Assembly (NCBI GenBank): GCA_009829735.1
Contig: CM020620.1
Location: 18,620,354 to 18,684,353 of the forward strand
Source of the DNA: Pyropia yezoensis
Taxonomy: Eukaryota > Rhodophyta > Bangiophyceae > Bangiales > Bangiaceae
Direction: 5' to 3'
Length of the DNA: 64,000 nucleotides
This document shows, piece by piece, positions 29,320 through 64,000 of this stretch (its first letter is position 1; every line of letters starts with the position of its first letter). Below the pieces are notes generated by a model. That model did not search any database and was not told the DNA's origin. It saw only the letters and a list, made by a program, of their open reading frames with translations. The position numbers and the translations under genes are program-made.

Positions 29320-29390
<71 letters not shown>

Positions 29391-30949
29391 CGGGCGGGCG
29401 CCGCGCCCCCCCCCAGCAACCGACGGTGCGGGGCCTCGTGTCGGCGACCGGCTCCGTGTCGGGGCGGTCGCTGGCGGCGGCGCTGGAGCTCCGCCGCTCC
29501 CTCGCCCGCCACCCGCCGCCGCCGGCGGTGGCGGCCGCCGGTACGGGTGCGGCAAAGGCGGGCGGCACCAAGCGCCCGCGCGTCGACGGGCCTGGCGGGG
29601 GGGGCGCGTCCGCGGGGGCGGTGGCGGCAGCGGCCGCGGCGGGGGGGATGGGAAAGGGAAAGCGCTCCGCAACGGGCGCAGACGCCCCTCGGGGGGCGCC
29701 CACCGCCGCCGCCGCCGCCGCTGCCGCCGCCGCCCCCTCAGCGCCGCCCGGCGTGGGGCGCGCCGCGCCTGTTGGGGGGTGGGGCCGGGGCACGCCAGCT
29801 GGCATCGGGCGGGAGGGGACCCCGCAGGGGGTGGGGCGCGGCGCGCCGGCCGGGCTGCCGCGGAGTGTTCCACCCGGGGTGGGGCGCCGCGCGCCACTCG
29901 GGGTGGGGCGCGGCGCGTCACCGGGGGTGGGGCGCGGCGCGCCACCCGGGGTGGGGCGCGGCACGCCACCTGGGGTGGGGCGCGGCGCGCCACCGGGGGT
30001 GGGGCGCGGCACGCCACCGGGGGTGGGGCGCGGCACGCCACCGGGGGTGGGGCGCGGCGCGGCGCCCGGGGTGGGGCGAGGCGCGGCGCCCGGGGTGGGG
30101 CAGGGCGCCTTGCCCGGGGTGGGGCGGGCCGCGCGCCCGCTGGGGGCTGGGCGGGGTGCGCCGCCTGGGGTGGGGCGCGTCGCGCCACCCGGGGTGGGGC
30201 GCGGTGCGCCGCCTGGGGTGGGGCGCGTCGCGCTACCTGGGGTGGGGCGCGGCGCGCCGCCCGGGGCGGGCCAGGGCGCCTTGCCCGGGGCGGGGCGGGC
30301 CGCGCGCCCGCTGGGGGCTGGGCGGGGTGCCCCCGCGTACGGGCGTGGCGGCCCGCCGCGCCCGCCGTGCGCCTTGCCGCCGCCGGCACCGCGGCCGTCG
30401 CCGTCGCCGTCGCCGTCGCCGCCGCCGCCGCCGTCGCCGCCGCCGCCGCCGTCGCCGCCGCCGCCGCCGTCGCCGCCGTCGCTGTCGTCGCCGTCCCCCC
30501 CGCCCAGCACCGTCCGTGGCCGCGGCGGCGGCGGCGGGAGCGTCACCAGCTCCGCCGCCGCTGCCGCCGCCGGCAACGCGTCGTGGTCGGCCTTCCTCGC
30601 CGCCTTTGACGCCGCCCCGCCGTCCCCTTACCTCGAGCTCCGCGCCGCGACGCTGGCCGCCCAGGCCGCCGCCGCCCGTCGCCCGCGGCCGCCGCCGCTG
30701 CCGCCGCCGCCGCCACCGCCGCCGCCGCTGGGACAGCAGCCACCTCACCCGCCGCCGCGGCCGCCGCCGCCGCTGTCGCCGCCGCCGCCGCCCCCACCGC
30801 TGCGGCAGCCGCCCCCAGGCAGGTGGCCGCCGCCGCCGCCGCAGCAGCAGCAACAGCCGCCGCCGGCTCTGTCGCTGCCGCCGCTGCCACCTGCCGCACC
30901 AGCGGCCGCGGCACCGCCGGTGGGGTGGCCCGCCCCGCGGTGGGCGTGA
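25182..30949 (+). CDS. SNF2-family chromatin-remodelling ATPase, ATRX/ARIP4-like (frame change near a C-run)
   Basis: ATG 25182 opens a frame running to about 28,170, and a second frame carries on to TGA 30947-30949. The ATPase core has [16 protein letters not shown], Walker [12 protein letters not shown] (about residue 335), [10 protein letters not shown], the DEAH box DEAHRIRN, and [23 protein letters not shown]. The helicase C-terminal lobe continues in the second frame with [41 protein letters not shown] and [13 protein letters not shown]. The LTGYPLQN...EYFAMVSW block and YRYGQT ending point to the ATRX/ARIP4 branch of the RAD54-like group, which remodels nucleosomes or displaces proteins from DNA. 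The switch is at an 18-base C-run (28155-28172) that ends in TCAG, so a splice acceptor is an alternative to a run-length error. A Gly/Ala-rich N-terminus and a long repetitive C-terminal tail (29,300-30,949) flank the core. Confidence 0.9.
29754..30350 (+). repeat. 24-bp coding minisatellite in the SNF2 tail
   Basis: About two dozen imperfect copies of a 24-bp unit encode the 8-residue repeat PPGVGRGA (variants [24 protein letters not shown]). The array keeps the reading frame, so it acts as a disordered Gly/Arg/Pro tail in the protein. It is followed by (CCG/TCG)n encoding a Pro/Ser stretch. Confidence 0.85.
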
Positions 30950-46783: not shown

Positions 46784-46910
46784 TAGCACAGTGGTCTTCA
46801 GCGCCTGGCTGACACATGTGTGTCGTGGCGCAGGTCTGAGTCGAGATCCGACATTCACATTTTCCGATTGCGGATTCGGTCATGCACTAGAGAACCACCA
46901 TCGTCGGGGG

Positions 46911-47258
46911 TGTCACCCGAGTGAACCCGCAACTGAGTTGGGTTGGCCTCTTGCCCGCCCGTACTCCCGGTCGAGCTGGCTGGAGGGACTTCAAGGCCCT
47001 CTGTGACCCAGGTATACCTACATGTGTCACACCAGTATTCAAAGACACTGGAATATGTGCGTCACCCGTGTACTCCCCGGACGACGGGTGGTCCGATCTA
47101 GCCCTGTTCGCTAACATTGCGCACGACGCAGACCAAGACCCTCACATCTCTGAGACGGAGAATCCCCTATCTCCCGGACCATCCGACACTAAAGTTTACC
47201 ACTGTCCCCTGCTGCTCCACCAAATGTGGCAAAAACCACTCGCACACACAGCACCCCA
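46911..47258 (-). mobile_element. Fragment of an element B-related retrotransposon (gag start, PBS, LTR tip)
   Basis: This piece aligns collinearly with 63378-63725 of element B. It holds the N-terminal gag coding region (SSGEYTGDA, then PVSLNTGVTHVG), the leader, the conserved PBS block CTGCTGCTCCACCA and the first ~30 bp of the LTR beginning TGTGGCAAAAACC. Similarity looks about three-quarters by eye. The gag start codon is lost (ATG to AGG at the equivalent site), and similarity stops abruptly at both ends. It is a dead relic of a related element. Confidence 0.8.
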
Positions 47259-47369
47259 GTAGAGGTGGTGTACAGTCAGGCGCCAATACCGTTTGTCCAC
47301 TTGGCACATAAAAATCCAAGAATTATACTGTCACGATCTGCACCCCTCTCAGACGAGCTGGGTTTGCAG

Positions 47370-48620
47370 CCACCGGCTGCGACTTGGTAGAATCCGACCT
47401 TGCCCCTCTCCCCCCCCCACCCCCCCCCTGCCACCATGGACCATTATTGAGACAGCCCGCCTCGCACACACTACCCAACAAGACAGCATGGCCCACCCAC
47501 TCTCAATACCCAATCCCGTTGCCCTTAGAGGCAATGACGGCCGCTACTCGACAGGGCATGGAGTCAATGAGGGTCATGAAGAAGGCGTCGAGTATGACCT
47601 TCCACTCCTCACAGAGTGCAACGTAGAGGTCCTCCTTAGTTTTTGAAGCGATCTCCCGCGCGCGCAAGCGGCGGTCCAGCTCATTCCGGACATTCTCGAT
47701 GGGATTAAGGTCGGGGCTTTGCCCCACCCAAGGAAGCACCTTGAACCCCGGCGCGGCCTTGGCCGCCTTGCTGCGCTTAGACGCGTGGCAGGGGGCCAAG
47801 TCCTCTTGCAGCCAGGCGCCCCCAGGGGACCCCAAGTCGGCTATCAGGTGGTGGTAGACCTCCTCCTCCAGGACGCGCTCGTACTGCGCAGAGTCCATGG
47901 ACTCCTGCACATGATACAACGGGGCGCGCCCGCGCGACGAGAAGCCGGCCCACACCATGACCGACTGCCTCCCGCTCTCGAAGGATGGCCGCAAGCAGGC
48001 GGGTAGGAAGCGCTCCCCCTCCTTACGCCACACCCGGGCGCGCGACGGCCGTTGGACCTCAAACGAGCTCTCCTCTGTGAAAAGCACAAACGTCCACCCA
48101 AGGTCCCAGGAGCGTCGCGCCGTTGCCCACCTAACCCGCTTGACCTTGTTAGCGTCGGCGACCCATGGCTTGACGGCGGGCGCCATGGAGTTGAACCCCT
48201 GCGCCTGCATGGCGCGGCGCACCGTGCGAGAGCTAAAAAGCTTTGTCCGGCCCACATTGACCAGCTCAGTGATGGTAGAGAGGGAGCTGACTCAGTTCGC
48301 CTTCATCAGCCGAGAGAATGCACGCAGGTCTCGCTCGCTCAGCGCGCGGGAGCGGCCACGGTTGTCACGTGCCGGGACGGTGGTGCCGCTACGCGTCTTC
48401 TTGGCCACGTGGGCAACCGTGCTATTCTTGATGTCGAGTGCGTGTAGCACAATAGGGATCCGTCGCACGTCCACTCTCAGGGAACACTCACCAAGGGGGA
48501 TCGGCACCAACGTCACCGGGAGGCCAAGGTTGCTGTCCTTGGAGCGCAAGCCACGGGACCAAGATGGGAGCCCAAATGGGAGGGGTTCGTTGTTCTACCT
48601 TGGCCGGCGGTGGATTCGCC
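47370..48620 (-). mobile_element. Decayed Tc1/mariner-like DNA transposon
   Basis: The transposase coding region occupies 48549-47503. Possible terminal inverted repeats are weak: CCACCGGCTG...GGTAGAA at about 47,372-47,393 and, inverted, CCACCGCCGG...GGTAGAA at about 48,593-48,613. Element boundaries are therefore approximate, and no clear TA target duplication can be defined. Confidence 0.6.
47503..48549 (-). pseudogene. Tc1/mariner-like transposase, broken
   Basis: The N-terminal half (48549-48292) has helix-turn-helix features: LDIKNSTVAHVAKKTRSG, then RALSERDLRAFSRLMKAN. It stops at an in-frame TGA at 48294-48292. The same frame then continues with STITELVNVG and SSRTVRRAMQAQGF, so only one codon interrupts the ORF. 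The catalytic half reads DLGWTFVLFTEESSFEV, VMVWAGFSSRG, AWLQEDLAPCHASK and WVGQSPDLNPIENVRNELDRRL, ending at TAG 47503. The second and third catalytic residues (D of QEDLAPCH, E of NPIEN) are present. The first Asp, expected in the (S/T)DES motif, is Glu here. Stop codon and lost Asp together predict an inactive element. Confidence 0.88.
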
Positions 48621-48804
48621 GCCGGCCCCCACGTTATAAACCCTCGGAGACACTACTAACTACCCTCCACCCCAAGATGCAAGTCCCTCTGGTCATACGT
48701 AACTTATAGATACCGTGACCAGTACGAACGATCAAATTGAAAGTTAAGGGTTAGAAGTAGCCCCCTAGTATTAGGGTTACAATACGGCCAACCCTATTGC
48801 TACA
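48621..48804 (-). repeat. Probable 3' LTR segment of element A (5' boundary visible)
   Basis: On the minus strand the sequence just left of a polypurine tract begins TGTAGCAATAGGG, as expected for the start of an LTR. Downstream it has a TTTATAACG TATA-like box at about 48,631-48,642 and a GC-rich hairpin at about 48,602-48,628. The other end of the LTR is not identifiable, because the mariner-like element lies directly beyond. Assignment rests on position only; the matching 5' LTR of element A would lie outside the window. Confidence 0.4.
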
Positions 48805-49395: not shown

Positions 49396-51762
49396 ATGTC
49401 GGACCCCCAGGTACCCGGGGGCGAGGACGACCTCCTGCCTGAAGAGGGGGAAGAGGTGATGGTGGACGACGTTCCCGTCTCCGCCACCGCCGCCGAGTGC
49501 TTCCTAGCGAGCTCGTCGGAGGACGAGGACGACCGGGTGACCGTTCGTGTGGCCCCGGACGGCGCGCCGGGCGGGTTGTCGTCCGTTTTTAGCGGCACGA
49601 CGGCTCCGTCGGGTGGCGGACAACCGCGTGCAGCGGTGGCTTCTACCGCTTCTCCTCCGGCGGCCCGGATGGCTTCTGTCGCCGGTACCGGCGTGGCTGT
49701 ACCTCAAGACGGTGTCACCGGCGTGGCGGATGGTGGTGTTGGCACCCCGTCCAGTCCGGCGGGTCAAGACGGCGCGGGTGCCCGCCCGGTTGGTGTGTCC
49801 GCTGCGGCGGGTAGCGGGTCTACCCGTGCTGCCCCCGTGGTACCCACGTCGGGTCCGGGTGGCGGCGTTGCTCTGCCCGCGGTGCCGCGGGCGTCTGGTG
49901 GTCAAGGTGGGTCTACACCGATGGCTGTGGACTCCGGTAGTTACTCCGGGCGGGCGCCCGTCCTTCTTCTTCCTCCTCGGCCGCGTGCGACTCCGGCGCC
50001 GGCCCCTCTTCCGGTGGGGCATCCCCCGGCGCCCCCTATTCTTCCTGGTCCTGCCCGGGTTGCCTCGTTGGGTGGCGGCGTCGCCGTGGCGGCGGGTCAA
50101 CCCGCCATGTCGATGTTCGACTTGGTGGCTCGGGTTCAAGGCCTGACTGTGCAAGAGTCAATGGAGTCCGATGGGCGGATGCGGGTGGACTTCCACCTGC
50201 CCCATCCCCGTGGAGAGTCCTCCCGGCGCTTCAAGGTGGACCCGAGTTGGGAGCGGGAGTTGGTGCGGCTGGTCAACCAGCCGAACGCGGTGCGAGTGGA
50301 ACACCATTGGATCCTGAGTCAGCCGGACGACCGGCATGCGCAGCTCTGGCGTACTCGGGTGGGACGGGGTGAGGTCTACCTCGACCCCGCCTTCGGGGTA
50401 TGCGACCTGATTGCTCCCGCGTTGCCGCGGGAGATTGACTATCCGGCTAGTGCTCGGGGGATTGCGGCGGCGGCGGAGCCGGTTGCGTTTGGGGAGACGG
50501 TGGGCAGTACCGGTCGGTATCCCGACTTAGATTACTACCCGGGGGTATCCCCGTATCTGTCGTTGACGGCTCCCTACCCGCCTATGGCGGGGTTGAAGTC
50601 GGCGTCGAGCTGGCGACGTAACCATGGTGTCATGGCGGATGCGTTTCGCACGGATATAACGTGTGCGTTGCAGACCGGCAATGGTCGTGCGCCGGTATAC
50701 ACTCCCGTGCGCCCGCCGCTATGGCAGGAGGGGTGGGAACCCGCCCCTGCTTTCCGGTTTGACACCGGCTCCTGTCTCCGATACTTCGGGAGTGTGTTGG
50801 CCTCCCGGCCGGTCCACCCGTTGCAGGGTAGCTTCACCCTTGAGGTTACCCTCGGGCAGGCGACCTCCTTCTTGCTGTCCGTCCGCCGGCAGGGGCGCCT
50901 GTTTCATCTTCCGACGGGTGTCCGTCGGCACATCGCGCAGTTGGGCGTGGACCTGATAGCTGCCAAGACCGGGTTGGCCCGGGAGTTCGAGGCCCTGCTG
51001 GCTGTTCACGATGCCGTGAACTGGGCTGGGGTGTTGGCCCTTCCCCCGTACCGGGACCCGCAGGCTGGGGCTACCCCCTTGCCTCGTTACTCGTTGCGTA
51101 TCCGGCGTACTCAGCCGGGTGAGCCTAGTTGCCATGGGTGGGCGTCCACCGAGGCCGTTCCTGACCTGGGTATTCCCATGGTTATCCATGACCCTCTTCA
51201 GGTCCTTGCCCCGTGGTTCGGTAACCCGATACCGGCGGCGGTTGGCCGCCGTCCCGGAGAGTGGGGCTCTGCGGGTGGGGAGCGTGAGGTGTCCCGTCGT
51301 CGGGCGGAGCCCCGCCGGGGTTACGGTGGAGCCCCTTCGGTAGGGTCCTACCGAGCCTCGTATCAGGTGCCACCGGCTCCGGTGGTAGCCGTGTCGGCTC
51401 CTCTGGCTCCTCTGGCTGCGCCAGTGTCCGCTCCCGCCCCTGTCATACAACACGGGGGTCCCCGTCTCTGGTATGAGGGCGTCGACGCCCTTGTTGCCCG
51501 CGCAATGCGGGAGGGTCTCTTTGTTAGCTGGGGGGATATCCCCCCAGGTGCTGCGCTAGTTGGGTCAGCGCGTTGCTTCGGTGGCTTGCTGGACCGCCTT
51601 CAGAAAGCTCTGGAGGACGTGGAGGCTGGCCGCAGCACCCTCGTCCAGCTATGCACCGAGGTAACTCGGGTGATTGACCGTCGTGAGATTGCCGACCGGT
51701 GGAGCACGGAGGTATACGCGCTTACGCGTGAGTGGCCTCCCTCGAGTGGGTCTACCCACTGA
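49396..51762 (+). CDS. Antisense ORF of element A (unknown conserved protein)
   Basis: The ORF spans 788 codons from ATG 49396 (ACCATGT context) to TGA 51760-51762, on the strand opposite to gag-pol and between the PPT and the end of pol. The N-terminus is acidic and Ser-rich (EDDLLPEEGEEVMVDD, SSSEDEDD), followed by a long Gly/Ala/Pro/Val-rich linker to about residue 230. The folded part (about 235-620) has MFDLVARVQGLTVQESM, VRVEHHWILSQPDDRHAQLW and FRFDTGSCLRYFGSV. It continues with SFLLSVRRQGRLFHLP and VHDAVNW. From residue 464 (F of FGSV) through the HLP at 504-506 and the H-x4-W beyond, it parallels the antisense protein of element B with near-identical spacing. A basic Pro-rich linker and a helical C-terminus (RLQKALEDVEAGRSTLVQLC) follow. 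No known domain is recognised: it is neither env-like (no signal peptide or membrane span) nor part of gag-pol. Confidence 0.78.
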   Translation: MSDPQVPGGEDDLLPEEGEEVMVDDVPVSATAAECFLASSSEDEDDRVTVRVAPDGAPGGLSSVFSGTTAPSGGGQPRAAVASTASPPAARMASVAGTGVAVPQDGVTGVADGGVGTPSSPAGQDGAGARPVGVSAAAGSGSTRAAPVVPTSGPGGGVALPAVPRASGGQGGSTPMAVDSGSYSGRAPVLLLPPRPRATPAPAPLPVGHPPAPPILPGPARVASLGGGVAVAAGQPAMSMFDLVARVQGLTVQESMESDGRMRVDFHLPHPRGESSRRFKVDPSWERELVRLVNQPNAVRVEHHWILSQPDDRHAQLWRTRVGRGEVYLDPAFGVCDLIAPALPREIDYPASARGIAAAAEPVAFGETVGSTGRYPDLDYYPGVSPYLSLTAPYPPMAGLKSASSWRRNHGVMADAFRTDITCALQTGNGRAPVYTPVRPPLWQEGWEPAPAFRFDTGSCLRYFGSVLASRPVHPLQGSFTLEVTLGQATSFLLSVRRQGRLFHLPTGVRRHIAQLGVDLIAAKTGLAREFEALLAVHDAVNWAGVLALPPYRDPQAGATPLPRYSLRIRRTQPGEPSCHGWASTEAVPDLGIPMVIHDPLQVLAPWFGNPIPAAVGRRPGEWGSAGGEREVSRRRAEPRRGYGGAPSVGSYRASYQVPPAPVVAVSAPLAPLAAPVSAPAPVIQHGGPRLWYEGVDALVARAMREGLFVSWGDIPPGAALVGSARCFGGLLDRLQKALEDVEAGRSTLVQLCTEVTRVIDRREIADRWSTEVYALTREWPPSSGSTH

Positions 51763-51940
51763 GGAGTGCTATTGGTTGTGAGGGAGAGGGCCCCGGTGAC
51801 CCTTATGGTAGCCGGGTAGTAGTGAGTATAAACTCATCCCCTTTGGGGGCATTGCTTGCCTCTGTTTGCTGCCCTGGGGAGTACCCCTTCTGGCTTAGTG
51901 GTGCCGTGCCTCCCGCCCAACTTCTTCCGGTTGGTTCATG

Positions 51941-51996
51941 CTTGGGGAGGTCATCCTCCCTCACTTTGTGTCCTGGCTTGGGGAGGTCATCCTCCC
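51941..51996. repeat. Two direct copies of a 20-bp hairpin unit
   Basis: CTTGGGGAGGTCATCCTCCC occurs at 51941-51960 and 51977-51996. Each copy can fold (GGGAGG/CCTCCC around TCAT). They lie 3' of the antisense ORF in element A. Confidence 0.9.
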
Positions 51997-52041
51997 GTGT
52001 AAGCCTCCTAGTTACTTCGATATTATCGAAGTTAGCCTTTA

Positions 52042-52165
52042 CCTTTAAGTTAACTTATTAAGGTTCAGGTTTCACTTAGTTACCTAAGCTTGACTCTACT
52101 TAGTTGCCTAAGCTTGGTTCGACTTAGAAACCTAAGTCTGATTTGACTTAGAAACCTAAGTCTGC
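52042..52165. repeat. 24-bp hairpin array between convergent genes of element A
   Basis: Four units with inverted arms CTTAG...CTAAG start at 52075, 52099, 52123 and 52147, an exact 24-bp period. The loops (TTAC, TTGC, AAAC, AAAC) and spacers vary. A 12-bp perfect palindrome TAAGTTAACTTA precedes them at 52046-52057. The array sits between the stop of the antisense ORF (51762) and the stop of pol (52241), where transcripts from both strands must end. Confidence 0.9.
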
Positions 52166-52240
52166 CGTAACCATGTCACACCCTACTTAGTAGGTATAAG
52201 CCTCACCCCCCAACAGCCGAAGTCGGTGTCGGTTGGGTTG

Positions 52241-54780
52241 TTACAGTAGGCGTCGTCGCCTCATGTAAGGCATGAGGAGTTGGCGGGGTATATTCGCCGC
52301 CTGTTCCCAGGTGGGTGAGTCGTATCCGACCCACATAACCTTGACGTACCAGGGTCCTGGTAGGTTCGGGTCGGTGTGTCCGACCACGCTCTCTACTTGG
52401 TATGGAATCCCATCCGGTCCCACCGGGTCATCTGACCGGTGGGTTGTAAGAGCTTCATGTAGCAACCCAGCCGGTACCGGCTGAGCCTGTTCCGGCTTCG
52501 GAGCAGGTGTGACATCATTCACACTGATACGTTGGATCTCCGTATCGGAGTGTAAGATAACAGAGTGGTCATCTCTGTGGAGAATCTGGTACGGTCCCTT
52601 GACCGGTTGCATGAGCTTGTTCCCCCGGAACTTCTGGTGTCTGATGTAGACCCAGTCACCTGTCATCAGGGTTGCGTTGCGCACCCGTAACCGGGCGTCG
52701 AAGTTCTTCTTATATCGAAGTTGTGTTCTGTCAAGGGTACCCTTGAGCTTAGGAATCATCCACGATAGCTTGGCCAACCAAGCTAGGTGGATACGTTCGG
52801 CCGGTCGGCCTTTCGGTGTATCATACCGAGTGCACCTGCCTGGTGGCAGCGTCAGGTTACCGACGCCTAGTGGCATGACCCACTCCAGCGGAGCGATGTT
52901 CGTGCTCCGATGCGGGCTGGCATTGTATGCCAGGGTGAGTACGGACAGAAGCCTGTCCCAAGTGTTCGTGTGCTCTGCCACGTAGCACTGTAGCATCTTG
53001 ACGATGGTGCGGTTGAACCGCTCCACCTGCCCGTTGGTTTGCGGGTGGTAGTCGGATGCCCGACGTGGTTCGATACCGAACATGCCCAGGACCTTAGTGC
53101 AGAATGCTGACGTAAGGTTTGCTCCGTTGTCGGAGAGGAGTTGCTTCATGACTCCGTATGCACTGATCCAGTGGTCAACCACTGCGTTCTTGATGGTGTA
53201 TGCCGTATCATTCGGGATGGCTGCCGCTCGTGACAGCTTAGTGAAGCGGTCAGACATGACCAGGATGTACCTGTTCCCTTCTTCCGTTACCGGAAGTGGC
53301 CCGAGTATGTCGATAGCGACTTGCTCGTTGGGCCCATCGGGTGGGAATAGCTTCATGGCAGACGCCTGCCTATGTAGACTCATGCGGTTACGCGCACAGG
53401 GGTGGCATCCCCTTACGTGGTCGACCACGTCGACGGCCATTGCTGGCCAGTAGAAGAATCTTCGCATTGCTGCGAACATACGTGAGCCCCCCGGGTGATC
53501 GGCTGTGGGGTTCTCGTGTTCTCGTTCTATGACGGCTTGCCGTAAGGACACGGGAACCACGACTTGATGTCGTCCATCGGCGGGTGCCCGCCGGTATATG
53601 AGTCCGTCTTCGTTCTCGGAGAAGATGCCGGCCGTACCGGCCAGGAGGTTAGCGCGATGACGTCTACAGTCGTCGTCATTGGCTTGTGCCTCGCGGAAGT
53701 CCGCGAGGGTTAGTGGGCATGCTCGGTGTGCCATGGTATGGTCAACCATACCTTGGGTAGCGTTACCCACCATGCAGACCGGTACCACCGGGATGTCCTC
53801 GTCCACCGGGCGGGTATCCCCGCTCGGGGTGTCGAGTCGAGACAATGCGTCTCCGAGATGGTGGGTTGACCCAGCCTTATACAAGGTACGGTAGTCGTGC
53901 TCGGCCATTTTTAGCCTCCATCGGGCTAGCCTCCCATGGCTATCGGAATCCTTGTCACCAAGGTTGAGGAGCCATCGTAGGGGTTCGTGGTCGGACCTCA
54001 CGATGAACCTGGAGCCCTCCAGGTATGGACGGAGCAGTTGCACTGCCCATATAACTCCGAGGCATTCACGCTCGGTGGCACTATAGTTACGCTCAGCCGG
54101 GTTGAGTGTCCGGCTGAAGTATCCTACCGGACGTAGGTCCGGGATATCGTTATCGGTACCGATCAACGTCTCTCCCTGTAACAGGGTGCATCCCACTTGG
54201 GTGTCGCACGCATCGACATCGATGACGAAGGTACCCCGTCGGTGCGGTAACGCAAGGACGGGTGGGGATAGTAGGGCTCGCTTCAGCGACTCGAATGCCT
54301 CCTTTTCGCTAGGCAAAGGGGGTTGGAGTACCTTGGGCAGGGTACTGCTCGTAAGAACCGTTAACGGTTTAGCTATCCGAGCGAAGTCCTTGACGAACCG
54401 TCGGTATACATTGCACATTCCCAGGAAGCTCTTGAGCTGCGTCTGGGTGTTAGGGAACCGGGCATCCCGGAGTGCCCGGGTATTGGCTTCAAGTACCCCT
54501 AGTTTACCAGGGGTTATCTGGTGGCCCAGATACTCGACCGTCTGTTCGAAGAAGGCGCACTTCTTCAGACGCAGGGTTACCCCGGCGTTCCTCAAGAGGG
54601 TGAGTACCTCGTCAACATGTTGCACATGGTCATCCATGTTACGCGAGAAGACGATGACGTCATCGAGGTACACTAGGCAGTTACGCCACTTCACCCCCGA
54701 CAGTATAATGTCGATAGCCCGCTGGAATGTAGCGGGGGCGTTGGACAATCCGAAGGGCATCCTTAGGAACTCGTACACTC
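52241..54780 (-). CDS. pol: Element A pol, C-terminal part (RT-RNase H-integrase-chromodomain)
   Basis: The reading frame is open from the element B junction at 54780 down to TAG 52241. It starts inside RT at VYEFLRMPFGLSNAPATFQR, then CLVYLDDVIVFSR (the YLDD catalytic box) and GHQITPG. RNase H follows (FVIDVDACDTQVGC, YSATERECLGVIWA, RSDHEPLRWL). The integrase has an HHCC zinc finger (H-x...H, CHPCARN), the DDE residues in VAIDILGPLPV, LLSDNGANLTS and YHPQTNGQVERFNRTI, and a GPY/F module (VKGPYQIL). A C-terminal chromodomain (YQVESVVG, WYVKVMWVGYDSPTWEQA) marks it as a chromovirus; this domain steers integration to marked chromatin in characterised relatives. The ~77 codons to the right of 54780 in this frame are LTR sequence of element B and not part of the gene. 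Confidence 0.96.
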
Positions 54781-55248
54781 TGTGGCAAAAACCACTCGCA
54801 CACACAGTACCCAAGTTGGGGCGGTGTGCGAGGGCTGCCTCCCGTGTCGGGGGAACCGGAAGAAGTGCAAGTCGCACACACTCTATCCCTGTTGTGGGGC
54901 AATCCCCCCACGGACAAACAAGAAGATGGTGTGTGGTCCAACAGTTTCTTGGTCGGGACGGGGACGCAGGGCCAAGCCCCGCTGTCCCTCCCCTTATCCC
55001 CCCAGGGTCCACTCAGAATCTCGCCACTCAGAATCTCCCACCCCAGCACCTGCCCACCGGGCCACACGAAAATTCAAGACGATAAATGCAGAAAACCCTC
55101 AAATCCAAGTTGGATTTACTACTAAGCTAACTATCCCGAACTTAGGGAATATGGACCCAAATGCAGGGGGAGGAACGGACCAGGCTAGTGGCCTGCCGCC
55201 CCTTGCATGGCACGTGTTGCCCCCTACCTGGGGGTCAATACTGCCACA
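54781..55248 (-). repeat. 3' LTR of element B (468 bp)
   Basis: Bounded by TGTGGCA and TGCCACA on either strand, adjacent to element A pol on one side and to a polypurine tract on the other. It contains a CACGTG box near 55,211 and the palindrome CCCAAGTTGGG at 54810-54820. Besides providing the poly(A) region of element B, its plus strand lies directly upstream of the antisense ORF and could supply its promoter. Confidence 0.93.
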
Positions 55249-55261
55249 CTCCCCTCTCCTC
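55249..55261 (-). other. Polypurine tract of element B
   Basis: Minus-strand GAGGAGAGGGGAG directly abuts the TG start of the 3' LTR, the expected place and composition for the plus-strand primer. Confidence 0.85.
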
Positions 55262-55590
55262 AGTTCCGACCGACCCGGTCGGCCCTGTGAGGGGGTGCGT
55301 AAACGCACGTCTCGGCGTTGGGGGGGGACGCGACTTGCTGTCCCCCCTTGAGTACGTAACGCGGATGTGGAGGCGGTCACGTTGGCCGCCCCTCTCCTCA
55401 AGCTTGCCCACTTGGCAGCTTGCTCTCCCCGGTTCACACCTCACCACCACCACCACTTCTCCTTCACCTTACACGGGGCCACCCCACGCTGGGGAGGCCA
55501 CCCGTTTACCCACGATCCGAGTCCCCCTCAACTCGAGGCGGGTCTCGTGCCGTGATAGCCAGGACGTCTCTCCCCAACTTGGGGAGAGCC

Positions 55591-57534
55591 ATGGCGACTC
55601 CGGGAGTGGAGACGGACTCTCTCGATGAGCGTATGGAGGACACCTCCTACGGTGCAGCGCCTGCCGGGACTTCCGGCGGGGGCTCCGCGATCGCTCCGGG
55701 GGGTGGGACTCCCGCGTCACCCGGCTTTGGGTTGACGGCAGGATCTCCCCCGGAGGCGGGACAAGTTGTCCCGCGTGAGGCCTTGGGGCGGTGGTTTTAC
55801 CCCGCTTGGCCTCTGTATGAGGAGGGGTTGACTGTTCTTCGCTGTGGCCGACTCGGCGCAGCGATGGGTCGGGTATGGGACCGCCTACGGGAGAAGTATC
55901 CCCGTAGGGTCGGGTTCCCTGCCGGCTTCAGGACGGACCAGTTTGCCTTCCTGGACGACGAGGAGGTCGAAGACGTACAGCGGGCCAAGGCCATGGTGGA
56001 CCGCGGGGGAACTATCCCGGGTCCCGGCGACTTGCCGATCTTCACTTGGGACGCGGTGGCAACTCGCCCCCCGTACCTTCACGAGGCCGATCCGCACACT
56101 CATCACTTTGATGTGCGGATGGAGAAGGACTTCCGGCGAGGTCCCTACTTGGTGACCTCGGCTCAACTTGAGTTTCCTCAGCAGTCTGCTGCCAGTAAGG
56201 AGCAATACTACCCGAAGAAGCCCGAGTGGTGGCCTCAAGTTGAGGTCCCCTACGGGTTCCCGGCATTGTTGCCACGGTTGCTTGACCACTTCGGCTCCGT
56301 CATGTTGACGGCTGGCCCTGATCATCTGGTGTGGGCCATGTTGGCCACCCAGTGGCTCCTCGAGGTCATGTCGACCTGGGTGTCATGTGTTCAGCGGCGG
56401 GGGATGCTCTGGCATCTCCCCCTCCGGCTCATCCAGGGTTTGGAACAGCTCACCCCTCAGCTAGTTGCTGAGGGGTGCTCGTCAGGACAACTCACTCTAC
56501 TTGAGGAGATGCTCCGCCTCCACAAGTTTATCGAGTGGGAGAGCATTGAGCACAAGTTGCGCCGCCCCACTCGGGGGCCCAAGGACGATGGCGCACTTCG
56601 CCAGTTCGTGTGGGTCGCTCGTGAACTTCACGACGGCCGTGTGGTCCTACGAGAGGGGTTGGGCATCGGGGACTACCCGTATGCCCCGGGGGTGGATCGT
56701 CACACTGCGCCACCCCCGGACAAGCCCATAGTTATGGCTGTGCCCTCATATGATGACCATATGACTCAACCTACTGCGGGAGCCCCAAGTCGGGGTCGCA
56801 GTTACACCCGGGTACCGCCACCTCGGCGTGCCCCTCCGCTCCCTCCTGTTCCTTTCCAGCCTCACGGGAACATCCCGATCAGCGTGGCCGTGGAGTCATC
56901 CACACCGGTGTCTCCCAACTTGGGGGCCACCCTCCTGACGGTATACCCCAAGTTGGTGTTACCGCCCACGCCTCTAACCTCAGAGATGATGATCACCACG
57001 TTGGTGCGCACCATTTCCTGGTTGGCCGCGTCGACCGCAACCCTCCAAAGTTCCGAGACTCCTCAACTTGAGGAGCGCGTTCGTACTGCAGTGGCGACCG
57101 CGAGTTGCGAGTCGGTGGCGGAGTTTATGACGGCCGAGTTGGCTCGCATTGGGGCTATTATGCCCCAGCCAACCCCACTTGGGCGTGGCAAGCGTCGTGC
57201 GAGCCGGGCATACTCGCCTCCTCGCCGTCGTCGCCGTCACTCGCGGCGCTCTCCCTCCGTGTCGGAAGACGAGTTGTCTTACTCCGTCTCGGAGTCCTCT
57301 ACCCCATCGGAGACGGAGTCTGTCCAGCGTCTGCGTCGCAAACTTGCGCGCAAGACCAGGCAGAAGAGTAGCCACGGTCGGCGCCACTTGCGCGACCGTG
57401 AGGGGCGCGACGGTTCCGACTTGGAGCCGCCGCCCCTTCCAACGAGTGGAGACCGTTATCGGCGTGGGTCTCGCCGCTCGCCTCCACGTGAAGGCGAGGG
57501 CCGTGGAGTGGGAGAGTCTAGCATGCGTGCCTAG
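55591..57534 (+). CDS. Antisense ORF of element B (unknown conserved protein)
   Basis: ATG 55591 to TAG 57532-57534 gives 647 residues on the strand opposite to gag-pol. The frame is open further upstream but has no earlier ATG. The N-terminus is Gly/Ala-rich with an acidic patch. The folded middle has REALGRWFYPAWPLYEEGL, FRTDQFAFLDDEEVEDVQRA, HHFDVRMEKDFRRGPYLV and YGFPALLPRLLDHFGSV. Next come WVSCVQRRGMLWHLP and RLHKFIEWESIEH. F234 of FGSV, the HLP at 275-277 and the H-x4-W motif line up with the element A protein with a one-residue and a two-residue difference in spacing. The C-terminal ~170 residues are disordered: first Pro/Arg-rich, then Arg/Ser-rich with RRRRRHSRRSPSVSEDE, a nucleus- or RNA-binding-like tail. 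No known domain, signal peptide or membrane span is seen, so it is not an envelope gene. Confidence 0.78.
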   Translation: MATPGVETDSLDERMEDTSYGAAPAGTSGGGSAIAPGGGTPASPGFGLTAGSPPEAGQVVPREALGRWFYPAWPLYEEGLTVLRCGRLGAAMGRVWDRLREKYPRRVGFPAGFRTDQFAFLDDEEVEDVQRAKAMVDRGGTIPGPGDLPIFTWDAVATRPPYLHEADPHTHHFDVRMEKDFRRGPYLVTSAQLEFPQQSAASKEQYYPKKPEWWPQVEVPYGFPALLPRLLDHFGSVMLTAGPDHLVWAMLATQWLLEVMSTWVSCVQRRGMLWHLPLRLIQGLEQLTPQLVAEGCSSGQLTLLEEMLRLHKFIEWESIEHKLRRPTRGPKDDGALRQFVWVARELHDGRVVLREGLGIGDYPYAPGVDRHTAPPPDKPIVMAVPSYDDHMTQPTAGAPSRGRSYTRVPPPRRAPPLPPVPFQPHGNIPISVAVESSTPVSPNLGATLLTVYPKLVLPPTPLTSEMMITTLVRTISWLAASTATLQSSETPQLEERVRTAVATASCESVAEFMTAELARIGAIMPQPTPLGRGKRRASRAYSPPRRRRRHSRRSPSVSEDELSYSVSESSTPSETESVQRLRRKLARKTRQKSSHGRRHLRDREGRDGSDLEPPPLPTSGDRYRRGSRRSPPREGEGRGVGESSMRA

Positions 57535-57645: not shown

Positions 57646-60600
57646 TCACGTTGAGGGAGGGCTGTTAGGGTCTATCTCGTTCCGGGCACAGTACGCCCGG
57701 ACCTTCTCAGCAGGAAGGTCCTCCACATACTCCCACGTATCGTCCTTGGCTTTGTAGCCAAACCAACGCACCCTCAACATGAGGCGGTCAGTATCCTCAT
57801 CCCAGCCGTGGTCGATGAACTTGTCGAACACGTACTCCTGCGGGCCCTGTTTGGCTGCAGGCAGCGAGGGCAGGCGCCACGTTTTCAAGGCACGCGCCCA
57901 AGCTGGGTCGCCTGCAGGCGGTGGTGCAACTTTGACCACGTCCTGTCCGTTCACTGTGCGGACCCCATCGTCACTTTCGATGGTGAAGCGCCGCCCATCA
58001 GTACGAAGGACCTGGTACGGCCCCTTCGTCTGGAACACCAACTTACCCCCAGTTGGGGTGTGTGAGTGGACCAATACCCAGTCACCCTGCTCGGGGACAT
58101 GCTTGGCGTTGCGCACCTTTTTGTCAAAGGTACGCTTGTAGCGCTTTTGTGCTTTGTCCATCTCAGCCCTGACTTTAGGGATGAGGTTTTCAAGCCTAGC
58201 AGCGAACTCCGCCTTACTCTCAGTAGGAGTGGGCGTACTGCCACCATCCTCCCTAGTTGGGAGCGGCCGCCGCACGGCAATAGACCGCACGCGACGGGGG
58301 GTCACAAAAGCGAGGGGTACTTCCCCGGTAGATGAGTGAACCTGCGAATTGTAGGCAGTGGTCAGAATAGAAATGTATTGGTCCCACGTCTTCACGTGCT
58401 CACTCACATAATGGCGCAGCTGCCTAACAATAGTTTTGTTGAAGCGCTCCACCTGCCCATTAGTTTGTGGGTGGTAGGGGGTGGCATAGTTTGCCTTAAC
58501 CCCCAACATATCCAGCACTCCTTGAAACAGTACAGACGCAAATTGCGGTCCATTGTCCGATAGTGTACTATCCGGAATGCCATACGCGGCAACCCAGTGA
58601 TCTAGGAAGGCTGACACGACCGACATGGCCGTGATCTCTGCCAGTGGGATCGCTCGCGTAAGTTTCGTGAAGCGGTCACAGATGACCAGGAGGTACTGGT
58701 TGCCCTCCTCGGTCACTGGCAGTGGCCCAAGGATGTCCATCGCCAACGCGGCGAAGGGCTCCTTGGCCGGGAACAATAGCATAGCCGTAGTAGGCCGCCG
58801 TTCCATCAGACGGTTCTGTGCACAACTTGTGCAGGCAGCCACCCAACTGTAGATGTCCACCACCATGGACGGCCAGTAGTACCTGGTCCTCAGGGTCTGG
58901 TACAGTTTACTAGACCCCAGGTGTCCACCCGTGGGAGCGTTATGCTCCCTCTCAAGGATACTGTCCTTGAGGGATGCGGGGACGACAAGTTGTTCGGTCC
59001 CCTGGAATACCCCCCTCCTCATGAGGAGGCCATCGTCTCCCAGGAAGAACCGCGTCTCCGCCACTGTATCCAGGGTATCCCTCTGCGACTTGCAGAAGGG
59101 ATCCTCGGCCTGGGCCTTCACTACTTCGTCCAGGGACAGGGGCAAGTACTTCTTGTTCCCTGGCGCCTCGGGATTCAACGCCTGACCCGAGCGCGTGACT
59201 ACCCCCACGATGGGGATGTCCTCATCGACTGGGGTGGTGTCCAGTCCCTCGGTAGGTACCCGAGAGAGGCCGTCGGCAAGGGCATGTTGCCTGCCAGGTC
59301 GGTACTCAATATCAAAGTTGAAGGGTGCAAGTCGCACCCTCCACCGGTTGAGACGAGTGTTCGTACAGTCCGTCTTGAAGATGAACTGCAACGCGCGGTG
59401 GTCGCAGCGGATGAGGAACTTCTCACCCTCTAGGTAGTGACGAAGTGACGTCACCGCCCATACCACTGCGAGTCCTTCCAACTCGGTGACTCCGTAGTTC
59501 TTCTCGGCCGAGTTTAGCCCCTTGCTGAAGTATCCCACCGGCAAGTACTCCTTGTCCGGCTGTTGCTGAAGCAACACACAACCAAGTTGGTCGTAGCTAG
59601 CGTCCACATCCAGGATGTAGTGGCCTCCCAACCTGGGAATAGCCAGGATAGGGGGCTTCAGCAGAAGGTCCCGAAGAGTCTCAAAGGATTCCTGCTCCAC
59701 CCGACTTGGGGGAGGCAGGTTCTTCGGTAGCGTTGAGCTCACTAACTCATTCAACGGCTTCGCCACTTTGGCGAAGCCCTTAGTGAAACGTCGGTACACG
59801 TTACACATCCCGAGGAAGCTCCTCATCTGGGTCTGGGTCCGGGGGTACTGAGCCTTGCGGATGGCCCTCAAGTTTTTCTCGTTGACACTGAGACGCCCCG
59901 GACGGACAACATGTCCCAAGTACTCCACCTCTTGAGTGAAGAGGTGGCACTTACTCGCCTTCAGTGACTCTCCGGCGTCAGCAAGTAGCTTGAACACCTG
60001 GCCAAGATGGCCAATGTGTTCCTCCGGACTTCGGGAGAACACAATGATATCGTCTAGGTACACGAGACAGATCTGCCACCGTACTCCGGCCAGAATCATG
60101 TCCATAGCGCGCTGGAAAGTTGCCGGCGCGTTACACAGGCCAAACGGTAGGCGCTTGCACTGGTAGGTACCACAGTGACAGGTAAAGGTAGTTTTATGCC
60201 TGTCCTCCGGGGCAATGGGAATTTGCCAGTACCCCGCGTTACAGTCCAGGGTAGAGAACACGTTTGCCTCCCCCAGAGAGTCCAGACAGTCATCCATCCG
60301 AGGTAGGGGATAACTATCCTTCACCGTGCTCTCGTTGAGCTTACGGTAGTCGATACAGAACCGGGGGGTCCCATCAACTTTGGGGACGATCACCACCGGA
60401 CTCGCCCACTCGGCGTTGCTGGCCTCGATCACATCGAGGGCCTCCATGCGAGCAACTTGCTCCTTAACGAGGGCCCTTGAACGGGGTCCCCCCCTATACG
60501 GTTGTTGGCGTATAGGGGGCGCACCGGGTTTCAACTCGATCCGGTGTTGGGTAGCTCTCATGAGTCCCAATTGACCATCCCACAACTTGTGATATTGGTC

Positions 60601-61629
60601 CAAGAGGCGTTCAACTTGAACCCTCAACCTGGGTGGAACACCCTCCATGTTTACCTGGGGCCGAGGAGAGGCGGCCGACTTGGCTTGATGCTTCTCCTTT
60701 CCGGACTTCGGGTCGCTACTTGCGCCCGCGCTGAGGGTGACCGCTACTACCGGTCCCTCGTGTTGGTCGATATAGCCGAACTTGGCCCCCGACTTGAAGA
60801 ACTTGGGCGACGAGCTCAGGTTCATCACCTGGATCCTCCACGGGACTCCGGCTTTGGAGTCCATCGTGCCAAGGGCAACATGCACTTGGTGCTTGCGAGC
60901 AAGACGGGGGTTAGGGTGCACCAACCCGTTCCCCGCATAATCAGTTACAACATCCACGTGCGCCACCGAGTTGGGGGGCAACATGACTTTACGGGCTAAA
61001 CGCAGAGTAGCAGTAAACCCTTCCCTCACAGAACAAACAGGCTTCGACTGTGAAACTGTCACAGGAGCCACAGACTTTCCCTTACCAAGGATGGGGATAG
61101 TCTCCCCATTCATCAACTTGACCCAGTACTCAGGGCCACAAATCAAAGGCACTTGTGTTACGACATAAGGGGTACCCAGAAGCAGGGGTACCGATATATT
61201 CTCAACTACACCATAGGTCACGTCGACCTCATGGGTCCCCAACCGAGTTGGTAGGGTCACGGCACCAACGATGGGAAGTACCCCACCATTGATATCGATC
61301 AGATGGTCAGCTTTAGACTTCCAGCGTTGGAGCCTCATCCCCTTTGGTAATAGCGACTTGCGTATCAAGGAGGCTCCTGACCCGGTATCAAGTACGATAC
61401 GGGCACAACAGGCGCGGCCGGGGGCAAGTTGCACCCGTCCAGCCACCTGGAAGTTCTCACCCGTCAGCACCGCGATGACCCGACGTGGGTTTACGTTCTT
61501 GGGAAGTCCCACCCGAGGTGGGCGGACTCCCTTAGGTCGCCGCAGTATCCGACACGGTTGGTTCGTCCTCTTGGCCCACTTGGCCGAGGCTGCCGTTGTG
61601 AGCTTCGGACGACCAGCTCCAACGGTCAT
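57646..61629 (-). CDS. pol: Element B pol: protease-RT-RNase H-integrase-chromodomain polyprotein
   Basis: An unbroken ORF of 1327 residues, ATG 61629 to stop 57646. Protease: ARIVLDTGSGASLIRKSL with the DTG active site near residue 80. RT: a VDGTPRFCIDYRKLN motif, FSTLDCNAGYWQIP, LPFGLCNAPATFQRAMD and CLVYLDDIIVFSR. RNase H: YILDVDASYDQLGCVLLQ and YGVTELEGLAVVWA. Integrase: H-x...H with CTSCAQNR, then ALAMDILGPLPV, LSDNGPQFAS and HPQTNGQVERFNKTI, then the GPY/F module (TKGPYQVL). A chromodomain closes the protein (EYVFDKFIDHGWD, LRVRWFGYKAKDDTWEY). The order is that of Ty3/gypsy chromoviruses. The start codon overlaps the gag stop as ATGA, so translation by reinitiation rather than frameshifting is suggested. 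Confidence 0.97.
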   Translation of the reverse strand: MTVGAGRPKLTTAASAKWAKRTNQPCRILRRPKGVRPPRVGLPKNVNPRRVIAVLTGENFQVAGRVQLAPGRACCARIVLDTGSGASLIRKSLLPKGMRLQRWKSKADHLIDINGGVLPIVGAVTLPTRLGTHEVDVTYGVVENISVPLLLGTPYVVTQVPLICGPEYWVKLMNGETIPILGKGKSVAPVTVSQSKPVCSVREGFTATLRLARKVMLPPNSVAHVDVVTDYAGNGLVHPNPRLARKHQVHVALGTMDSKAGVPWRIQVMNLSSSPKFFKSGAKFGYIDQHEGPVVAVTLSAGASSDPKSGKEKHQAKSAASPRPQVNMEGVPPRLRVQVERLLDQYHKLWDGQLGLMRATQHRIELKPGAPPIRQQPYRGGPRSRALVKEQVARMEALDVIEASNAEWASPVVIVPKVDGTPRFCIDYRKLNESTVKDSYPLPRMDDCLDSLGEANVFSTLDCNAGYWQIPIAPEDRHKTTFTCHCGTYQCKRLPFGLCNAPATFQRAMDMILAGVRWQICLVYLDDIIVFSRSPEEHIGHLGQVFKLLADAGESLKASKCHLFTQEVEYLGHVVRPGRLSVNEKNLRAIRKAQYPRTQTQMRSFLGMCNVYRRFTKGFAKVAKPLNELVSSTLPKNLPPPSRVEQESFETLRDLLLKPPILAIPRLGGHYILDVDASYDQLGCVLLQQQPDKEYLPVGYFSKGLNSAEKNYGVTELEGLAVVWAVTSLRHYLEGEKFLIRCDHRALQFIFKTDCTNTRLNRWRVRLAPFNFDIEYRPGRQHALADGLSRVPTEGLDTTPVDEDIPIVGVVTRSGQALNPEAPGNKKYLPLSLDEVVKAQAEDPFCKSQRDTLDTVAETRFFLGDDGLLMRRGVFQGTEQLVVPASLKDSILEREHNAPTGGHLGSSKLYQTLRTRYYWPSMVVDIYSWVAACTSCAQNRLMERRPTTAMLLFPAKEPFAALAMDILGPLPVTEEGNQYLLVICDRFTKLTRAIPLAEITAMSVVSAFLDHWVAAYGIPDSTLSDNGPQFASVLFQGVLDMLGVKANYATPYHPQTNGQVERFNKTIVRQLRHYVSEHVKTWDQYISILTTAYNSQVHSSTGEVPLAFVTPRRVRSIAVRRPLPTREDGGSTPTPTESKAEFAARLENLIPKVRAEMDKAQKRYKRTFDKKVRNAKHVPEQGDWVLVHSHTPTGGKLVFQTKGPYQVLRTDGRRFTIESDDGVRTVNGQDVVKVAPPPAGDPAWARALKTWRLPSLPAAKQGPQEYVFDKFIDHGWDEDTDRLMLRVRWFGYKAKDDTWEYVEDLPAEKVRAYCARNEIDPNSPPST

Positions 61630-63572
61630 TCGTTTCCCGCCGACTTGGCGTCCGAATCTGAGGGCGAAGGGGACGACGACGAGTCCGAGGACGACGTGTC
61701 CGCCCCCTCCGTCGAGGGTGTGGCGACCGCCACCACTGGTCGAGACCCACCCTCGCGGCGTGAACGCACTTCGTTCGTAGCCGACTTCTTACTCGCATTC
61801 CTAACAAGCTGTTGGATGCGTTTACTCAACTTGGGGCAATCATATGCCCAGTGACCATCGGAGTTGCAGTTCCAACACCGATGATCAGTTCCCGGAGGGG
61901 TCTTCCTAACTGGGGAAGACGACGAGGTACCTTGGGAAGTTCCCACGGCAGCTACCACCCTCTCCTTGCGGATTCGGCGTGCCTCTCGCAACTCTCTGGC
62001 CTGGCGCGCCTCTTCCCGTTCCTTGGCCAACTCGGCCTGACGCTCCTGGCGTTGTTCCTCCCGCAACTTGCGGTAGGCCTCGCCTCTGCGGTAGGCGAAC
62101 CTAGCCAACTCGGCCAGGGTCGCCCGGGCAGTGTTATGCTCCCGGGTCTCCATCCGGACTGACCAGTGGAGTCCTTCCACAAACCGACTCTTCACCACAG
62201 CTTGTGGATGAAGAAACCCACAAAGATTGTTGAGCTTACGGACTCGCTCCGCAAAGGACAACTCGTCCTCCGCCTCTTCCTGATGGGCTTGCGTAAACTC
62301 CTCGACTTGAGAAGCCAACGCCGCTTCATCAACCATGGCCCTCAACAACCAGTTGACGAGCTCCAAATAGGACGTCACCTCCCCAGCGCCTCCACTTGAG
62401 GAGCTGGGCATGACGGACATAAGTTCTGTCCGCAGGTCTCCCTTCGTAAACTCCTGTAGCATGTAAAAAGCCATGCCTTCACTTATGGCATTGTCGTCAC
62501 AGGCTTTTGTGAAACGACGTAGGAACTCAAAGACACGGAGGGGGGGAGTTCCATCCCACTCCGCTTTGTGCCCAAAAGAGTGAAGTGCATTCTTCTTGGC
62601 ACGGCCCATGGCTCGGGCCTGGTCAGGACCATACGCCACCGACTTGTTGTGGAGGGCGTAGGTCTCACAGTCAAAGATCCGCTGGTAGACCGGGTTGGCT
62701 ACCTGAATCTTGGGCGGCACCTCACGTTGAGGGAACAGCCGCTGTGGCACTGGGGTAAGTCCACCCTCAGTGCCTGTAGTCTGGTACGGCGAGCTTGGTG
62801 TAGCCGCCGGCGTTTCCGAGGGGAACTCCCCCGTGAAGGGCGTACGCCCCACCGCGTATGGTGTGGCTCCCTCGTTGGGAGTCACAGGTGTCGCCCCCAG
62901 TTCGGGGCGACCCGAGATAGGCGTGGGGAGGGATTCCCCCTGCGCCTGTGGGCTCGAAAGCCCCAATCCGGTCTGGACATTCAGGCCATCTGGCAAACTC
63001 GCTACAATCTGATTCAGAATAGTATTCGTCATCGTGACCACCAGGTCCGGCAAAGTCTGCCGCAACACATTGGTCGCCTCCCGACGGACAGTTTCCGCGA
63101 GGAGTGGATTGACGACTCCAGTTGAGTCTCGGTCCGCCTCCGGGAGTCCACCTGAGGGGTAACCACGTTCCTCAGGGGTCTCAACCGGGGGCATGGGCGC
63201 GAGCCCATCGCCGACCAACGGAGGTCCGCCGTCCTCCGAAAGCCTAGTTGGCGATGGCTCCATGCCAAAGTTGGCTCCAACCCGAGTGGAACTCGCGGGG
63301 ACAGTCCTCACCCCTTGGGACGTTCCCGTTGAGTATACCACGCGGTGGCCAGACTTCGGCCCACCCACGTCAGAAGTGTCACCCGAGTGAACTCCCGACT
63401 GAGTCGGGGTGGCCTGTTGCCCGCCCGCACTTCCAGTCCTGCTGGCTTGAGGGACCTCTAGTCCCTCTGCGACCCCAGGTAAACCCACCTGTGTCTCACC
63501 AGTATTCAAAGGCACTGAAGTACGTGCGTCACCCGTGTACTCCCCGGACGACGGGGGGTCCGAGCTAGCCAT
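61626..63572 (-). CDS. gag: Element B gag
   Basis: First ATG at 63572 (MASSDPPSSGEYTGDA), stop TGA 61628-61626, 648 residues. The N-terminal half is Pro/Gly/Thr-rich. The capsid-like region follows, with KAEWDGTPPLRVFEFLRRF, EGMAFYMLQEFTKGDLR and ELVNWLLRAM. Next is an Arg/Glu-rich coiled coil (EEQRQERQAELAKEREEARQ). A CCHC zinc knuckle, CWNCNSDGHWAYDC (C-x2-C-x4-H-x4-C), marks the nucleocapsid part, and an acidic/Ser tail ends the protein. Gag forms the virus-like particle that packages the element RNA. The last four bases overlap the pol start. Confidence 0.95.
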   Translation of the reverse strand: MASSDPPSSGEYTGDARTSVPLNTGETQVGLPGVAEGLEVPQASRTGSAGGQQATPTQSGVHSGDTSDVGGPKSGHRVVYSTGTSQGVRTVPASSTRVGANFGMEPSPTRLSEDGGPPLVGDGLAPMPPVETPEERGYPSGGLPEADRDSTGVVNPLLAETVRREATNVLRQTLPDLVVTMTNTILNQIVASLPDGLNVQTGLGLSSPQAQGESLPTPISGRPELGATPVTPNEGATPYAVGRTPFTGEFPSETPAATPSSPYQTTGTEGGLTPVPQRLFPQREVPPKIQVANPVYQRIFDCETYALHNKSVAYGPDQARAMGRAKKNALHSFGHKAEWDGTPPLRVFEFLRRFTKACDDNAISEGMAFYMLQEFTKGDLRTELMSVMPSSSSGGAGEVTSYLELVNWLLRAMVDEAALASQVEEFTQAHQEEAEDELSFAERVRKLNNLCGFLHPQAVVKSRFVEGLHWSVRMETREHNTARATLAELARFAYRRGEAYRKLREEQRQERQAELAKEREEARQARELREARRIRKERVVAAVGTSQGTSSSSPVRKTPPGTDHRCWNCNSDGHWAYDCPKLSKRIQQLVRNASKKSATNEVRSRREGGSRPVVAVATPSTEGADTSSSDSSSSPSPSDSDAKSAGNE

Positions 63573-63671
63573 GTTGGCTAACGATCCGTATGACACGGTC
63601 CAAGTCCACCGTTCCTCTGAGACAGAGGGCCCCCTACACCCGGGTGCACCCGGAGGTAAAGTTTACCTCTG

Positions 63672-63691: not shown

Positions 63692-64000
63692 TGTGGCAAA
63701 AACCACTCGCACACACAGTACCCAAGTTGGGGCGGTGTGCGAGGGCTGCCTCCCGTGTCGGGGGAACCGGAAGAAGTGCAAGTCGCACACACTCTATCCC
63801 TGTTGTGGGGCAATCCCCCCACGGACAAACAAGAAGATGGTGTGTGGTCCAACAGTTTCTTGGTCGGGACGGGGACGCAGGGCCAAGCCCCGCTGTCCCT
63901 CCCCTTATCCCCCCAGGGTCCACTCAGAATCTCGCCACTCAGAATCTCCCACCCCAGCACCTGCCCACCGGGCCACACGAAAATTCAAGACGATAAATGC
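63692..64000 (-). repeat. 5' LTR of element B (first 309 of an expected 468 bp)
   Basis: Repeats 54781-55089 without a visible difference. The window ends inside it; the LTR should end near position 64,159. Confidence 0.95.

Follow-up and report, generated by a model that had tools for sequence, protein, structure and literature searches.

An open reading frame (ORF) on the opposite strand between pol and the 3′ LTR is a described class of retrotransposon gene, termed aORF-3R by Vicient and Casacuberta and reported from plant Tat/Retand elements (as summarised in PMC7264820). Retand is presented in PMC11963269 as a non-chromovirus lineage of eudicots and Liliopsida, nearly all antisense ORFs of which have TRP28. 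In maize, gene23 of Grande is described as nuclear and as having its own promoter (PMC7264820). Outside plants, the Boty element of Botrytis has the antisense gene brtn at this place (PMC7264820; reference in PMC8365987), and the antisense gene of HTLV is said to have its promoter within the 3′ LTR (PMC7264820). The precedent named in the earlier note on this DNA, the plant Tat lineage, is therefore a known one but too narrow, as the account in PMC7264820 includes the fungal Boty. Why some LTR retrotransposons keep a large opposite-strand gene is an open question, to which the present case adds a host group distant from flowering plants and fungi, and a protein without known relatives.

Here we describe two such genes, carried by elements A and B in a 64,000-nucleotide stretch of Pyropia yezoensis DNA (the window). 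Compared to the Retand/Tat genes (Grande gene23, RIRE2 and Retand), the algal genes are alike in position, on the opposite strand between pol and the 3′ LTR; however, their proteins have no match to TRP28 (PF04195) in an hmmscan search of Pfam-A at E ≤ 1 for A and B or at E ≤ 10 for eight sequences, and their carriers possess a chromodomain, graded from sequence as fair in B and weak in A. Judged by TRP28, the algal elements do not belong to Retand, and their chromodomain-like tail speaks against membership as well. Boty differs in its fungal host, and brtn is known here by description, not by sequence. The antisense gene of HTLV is HBZ, which has a bZIP domain; the algal genes are likewise antisense genes of retroelements, but their proteins have no Pfam match above the cut-off. 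The algal genes join the aORF class by position, not by protein. A search of the open-licence literature, judged by title and abstract opening, found no report of an antisense gene in a red-algal retrotransposon among the papers listed (at most 20 per search). The case is new in its host group, its protein family and its carriers, which have a chromodomain (weak in A, fair in B), as well as in the evidence for selection and exchange.

Element B extends from 54781 to 64159 and is nested inside the pol of element A, an insertion absent from the earlier note. Its 3′ LTR (54781..55248, − strand, 468 bp) runs TGTGG...CCACA and is identical to the 5′ LTR, with 469 bases of the pair matching in register; the 5′ LTR occupies 63692..64000 (− strand) in the window and runs on to coordinate 64159. 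The target-site duplication CACTC lies at 54776..54780 (left copy) and, after the 5′ LTR, at 64160-64164 (right copy). Between the LTRs, gag (61626..63596, − strand, 656 codons) has a CCHC zinc knuckle, and its stop overlaps the start of pol in the tetranucleotide ATGA. The pol gene (57646..61629, − strand, 1327 codons) has domain matches to RT, RNase H, integrase and a chromodomain, in addition to a protease match below the cut-off (E 0.19). The order is thus gag, then RT-RNase H-integrase, between LTRs. Element A is covered in part: its 3′ LTR lies at 48443..48804 (− strand, edges approximate) and is 97.8% identical over 363 bp to its partner, which lies past the window end at L064:4262-4624 (window coordinate ~68209-68571). 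The 3′ part of A pol (52241..54780, − strand), interrupted by B, comprises the RT end, RNase H, integrase and a weak chromodomain; its listed ORF continues into the LTR of B, to 55012, and the rest of A pol and the A gag are found outside the window, in L064. The pol proteins of A and B share 43.7% identity across 860 aa of their overlapping part, and the gag proteins 25% across the matched part.

Both antisense ORFs exist at the coordinates first proposed, on the + strand; gag-pol is encoded by the − strand in both elements. The gene of A (49396..51762, +) has 788 codons and an ATG ~590 bp inside the LTR. The gene of B (55591..57534, +) has 647 codons from its ATG, lies 111 bp from the pol stop and ~340 bp from the 3′ LTR, and its frame stays open 5′ of ATG 55591, up to TTG 55420. 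The LTR-pair coordinates place each gene within the LTR pair of its own element, which bears out the claimed position between pol and 3′ LTR for both; the two genes are convergent with pol. As the window contains 149 ORFs of at least 150 aa, many of them surely spurious, a control for ORF length was needed. In 1000 order-1 Markov simulations per region, the longest ATG ORF to arise by chance was 397 aa for the A region and 444 aa for the B region, so that the lengths of both genes are beyond chance.

Sequence comparison revealed that the two antisense ORFs are homologous genes of two element families. BLASTP aligned the A and B proteins with 44.3 bits and E 1e-8, at 23% identity across 230 aa. 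Among 500 block-shuffled versions of B, 387 gave some match to A, with a top score of 28.1 bits, and in a 6 × 6 comparison of frames (36 pairs) E ≤ 0.1 was obtained for the annotated frame pair only. The profile-profile comparison that had been suggested as a check gave a significant alignment between A-type (7 sequences) and B-type (5 sequences) proteins, near-duplicates being filtered out by the program, with a probability of 78.6 and E 1.7e-5. The motifs on which the homology was originally proposed are all present in both proteins: FGSV at A464 and B234, VxRxGxLxHLP at A496 and B267, and HxxxxW at A538 and B311, the last being 31 (A) and 33 (B) residues past HLP. The spacing from FGSV had been given as 36-37 residues, whereas it is 32-33 from start to start, or 28-29 after the end of FGSV.

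Both elements had been labelled chromoviruses of an algal host. The host is indeed an alga, Pyropia, and the label suits B fairly and A weakly. When searched alone, the B pol tail scores 24.9 bits for a chromodomain against a Pfam cut-off of 25.1 (19.5 bits with the whole pol), and its matches to PDB chains include HP1 (E 2.1e-5) and Clr4 (4.7e-5). The A pol tail alone scores 16.2 bits (E 0.0099), the whole A pol piece gives no chromodomain match at E ≤ 10, and the best PDB chain is CDYL2 (E 0.15). Chromoviruses in red algae are not new in themselves: green and red algae are among the hosts named in PMC3605345, although a 2012 database survey gives the retrotransposon chromodomain as not found in Porphyra yezoensis (PMC3350952). 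The P. yezoensis genome is reported to consist of 48.0% repeats, with LTR retrotransposons predominating (PMC7423979).

When all 11 contigs of the genome (107.5 Mb) were searched at the protein level, at least 131 A-type places (from 2407 first-look candidates) and at least 136 B-type places (from 3297) were found, and at least 141 places with a Pyropia vietnamensis query. The copy statistics are drawn from the tops of ranked lists, which favours young, intact and conserved copies. In these lists the core is free of stops at 125 of 131 A-type places, all 136 B-type places and 132 of 141 places with the P. vietnamensis query; an open frame of at least 700 is kept by 124 of the 136 B-type copies and falls below 700 in 12. 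The at least 136 B copies are near-identical (99-100% in the core), and intact ones have an open frame of 724. The older B-like copies are mostly decayed: among the first 30 listed, six have a stop inside the match and six keep an open frame of at least 724. The earlier note would have been contradicted by an ORF absent or broken in most related elements; this did not hold for the top-ranked copies, nearly all of which have the ORF with an open core, the decay of the older B-like copies notwithstanding. The EukProt gene model P0011 proved to lie in this genome, which matches it at 100% identity along 188 of the 189 residues used as query.

The pol C-terminus lies on the opposite strand at all 30 A loci read and at 29 of the 30 B loci. 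Conversely, among the best 100 of 150 B pol copies, which as the best-scoring ones are young, 87 have the antisense gene where it is expected, one does not have it and 12 are undecided; this view from the pol side covers B. The antisense match lies at 1715-1878 bases in 75 of the 100 (at exactly 1878 in 72), leaving out a match at 5465 that is the gene of a neighbouring copy, and the gene was seen by eye in two further top copies. Of 11 extra places chosen by pol, one does not have the antisense gene and ten do, five of these ten with matches in two or more frames. At 28 of 29 B loci (L058, which is broken, was dropped) the same bases occur at the LTR start and the flanking DNA differs, which indicates independent insertions that took the gene along. 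Together with the identical LTRs and the 5-bp duplication of B, these are signs of mobility, and copies carrying the antisense gene have transposed recently.

That the gene family is kept under selection, as the earlier note proposed, was examined between subfamilies and within them. Comparison of A with three diverged relatives, L061, L062 and L063, gave dN/dS values of 0.30, 0.27 and 0.34 for the antisense gene, at dS of 0.76, 0.83 and 1.35, and of 0.08, 0.13 and 0.07 for pol. Between A and L061, identity by codon position is 0.77/0.83/0.58, so that the third position of the annotated frame is the most variable. Within families, pN/pS for the whole ORF is 0.45 in A (30 copies) and 0.11 in B (29 copies). 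The core values, 0.175 (A) and 0.035 (B), are biased because the core was used to rank the copies; at the two ends, outside the ranking part, the ratios are 0.56 and 0.58 in A (30 copies) and 0.17 and 0.18 in B (29/30 copies), which may be biased in part. The pol C-terminus of the same loci gave 0.42 in A (105 codons) and 0.08 in B (159 codons). Compared to pol, the constraint on the antisense gene is thus weaker between subfamilies and closer within A. In the opposite-strand frame with the same wobble position the ratio is low too (0.52 in A, 0.17 in B), as expected, but this frame is interrupted by 21 stops in the A gene and by 24 in that of B. Differences between copies amount to 0.034 in the ORF versus 0.087 in the 450 bp upstream for A, and to 0.0068 versus 0.0092 for B; the 111-bp spacer of B, at 0.0053, is no more variable than the ORF. 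Across copies the ratios lie below 1, and these sequence comparisons show that the antisense gene is under purifying selection.

Further comparison of A with its relatives revealed a sharp switch in similarity at ~51.8 kb. Against L061 or L062, identity is ~94% through pol and the 0.4-kb spacer, and ~72% from the end of the antisense gene onward. The synonymous difference between A and L061 is 0.48 in the antisense gene versus 0.20 in pol (Fisher p 5e-17, assuming independent sites). A spacer that differs less than the third positions of the adjoining gene cannot be put down to selection on pol. The pattern occurs in two of the three relatives read, L061 and L062; against L063 the synonymous distances of the gene (1.35) and pol (1.38) agree, and between L061 and L062 dS is 0.11 in the gene and higher, 0.18, in pol. 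Most simply, these distances reflect recombination of element lineages, with one junction located, near 51.8 kb; it might have proceeded, for example, by template switching. We tentatively propose, with rather less than even confidence, that these red-algal Ty3 elements have an old antisense regulatory gene of independent origin, that this gene is an exchangeable cassette which passes from one element lineage to another at its own boundary, pol remaining in place, and that its protein family is unrelated to any described. If so, antisense accessory genes would have had several separate origins, among the retroelements of plants, fungi, red algae and animal viruses, and such repeated origin would point to a common selective need. 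With at least 136 near-identical B copies, diverged sister families and a clean module swap, the question of why such genes are kept becomes testable. L063, at 85% identity in pol and 52% in the antisense gene, represents a third A-type lineage and is a useful outgroup.

The antisense proteins have few recognisable features. An hmmscan search of Pfam-A with 10 sequences from eight proteins found no family above the cut-off, P0003 having a sub-threshold match to DUF6214, and neither NCBIfam, a prokaryote library, nor the PDB sequences gave a match. Among the ~8000 candidates scored per search, relatives outside this genome were found only in Pyropia vietnamensis (33-60%), EukProt and other assemblies, and a profile protein search found seven proteins, five of them new and partial. 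No relative was confirmed in viral contigs (13 pattern matches for A, none for B) or prokaryote contigs (30 for B). One P. vietnamensis cluster has 19 members named hypothetical protein. The models P0004-P0008 of that species are a retroelement gene filed in a public protein set under this name, which is a warning for annotation; in some of them internal segments are missing, as though introns had been predicted within the ORF.

The A protein starts with an acidic run (net charge −15 per 40 residues near its start), and the B protein ends with a basic run rich in Arg and Ser (+13 per 40 residues in the tail), a tail that A does not have. Neither has a transmembrane stretch, the top 19-residue hydropathy means being 1.53 (A) and 1.23 (B), which speaks against an env-like protein. 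Profile comparison with the B gag showed no likeness (probability 0.1%), which speaks against a gag-derived origin, and Pfam gave no zinc-knuckle match; in these respects the first suggestion, that the product is neither env nor gag, is supported. The AlphaFold models of both proteins are poor, with a mean pLDDT of 37.2 (A) and 34.9 (B). The sole confident part of the A model is a group of C-terminal helices at residues ~717-777 (pLDDT block means 66-92), which aligns with P. vietnamensis P0004 and P0005 and has no clear counterpart in B. The shared core (residues ~330-550 of A and ~95-320 of B) is predicted to be helical, with low confidence. Overall, the proteins present a conserved core between fast-evolving low-complexity arms, a layout more in keeping with an adaptor in regulation than with an enzyme.

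By analogy, the most likely function would be that of a nuclear regulatory protein. The fuller reading, a genuine accessory gene of a Bangiales Ty3 lineage that makes such a protein, we regard as quite plausible, though just short of probable. On the model of maize Grande gene23 and HTLV, the promoter would lie within the 3′ LTR or just inward of it, in the 340-590 bp leader, and the non-membrane product would act in the nucleus, possibly on the element's own transcription, its genomic RNA or the pre-integration complex. The absence of a B-like basic tail in A counts against a nuclear role common to both. The main rival is a counter-defence or host-interaction protein, acting for instance against silencing, with exchange and fast evolution as marks of an arms race. 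It would account for amino-acid change faster than in pol (dN/dS ~0.3 versus 0.07-0.13), for arms that evolve fastest in A, and for the swapping of the gene between lineages; yet no dN/dS above 1 was found, and disordered arms under relaxed constraint would account for the rate equally well, so that we consider this role unlikely, if a serious contender.

A structural or particle protein, either a second capsid-like or an env-like one serving assembly or transfer, is less probable still. Retroviral env genes do sit at this position, and the low-confidence models place helices in the shared core, as in capsids, but gag likeness, a zinc knuckle and a transmembrane stretch are all absent from the searches described above, and the orientation requires a separate antisense mRNA. 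It might also be the antisense RNA that matters, tuning or triggering small-RNA silencing by base-pairing to the 3′ portion of the genomic RNA, with the ORF incidental. In every carrier copy the genomic RNA does include the complement of the gene, and the idea has been raised for other elements, as related in PMC7264820. RNA alone needs no reading frame, however, and the + frame is selected: its third positions vary most, with dN/dS ~0.3, and no stop interrupts it in A, B, L061 or L063, versus 7-24 stops in each of the other five frames. We therefore hold the RNA explanation to be very improbable. Chance long ORFs in a GC-rich repeat, with a likeness that is compositional, would be in keeping with the many surely spurious ORFs among the 149 of the window, but this explanation is contradicted by the shuffles, the Markov simulations, the six-frame control, the codon-position pattern and the relatives in P. 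vietnamensis, and we reject it as having practically no chance of being right.

Several other features of the window were observed. A remnant of the 5′ end of a third related element lies at 46895-47271; it is 82% identical to the gag start, leader and LTR edge of B in two gapless pieces, and has bases identical to those of B at the LTR junction. Adjoining the 3′ LTR of A is a Tc1/mariner-type transposase ORF (47503-48255, − strand) with matches to DDE_3 (E 2.8e-11) and HTH_Tnp_Tc3_2. At 25182-30949 (+ strand), SNF2-type helicase domains are divided between two listed ORFs, a split probably due to an intron or a frame change. An 849-aa ORF at 20383-22932 (− strand) has a thioredoxin domain close to its start.
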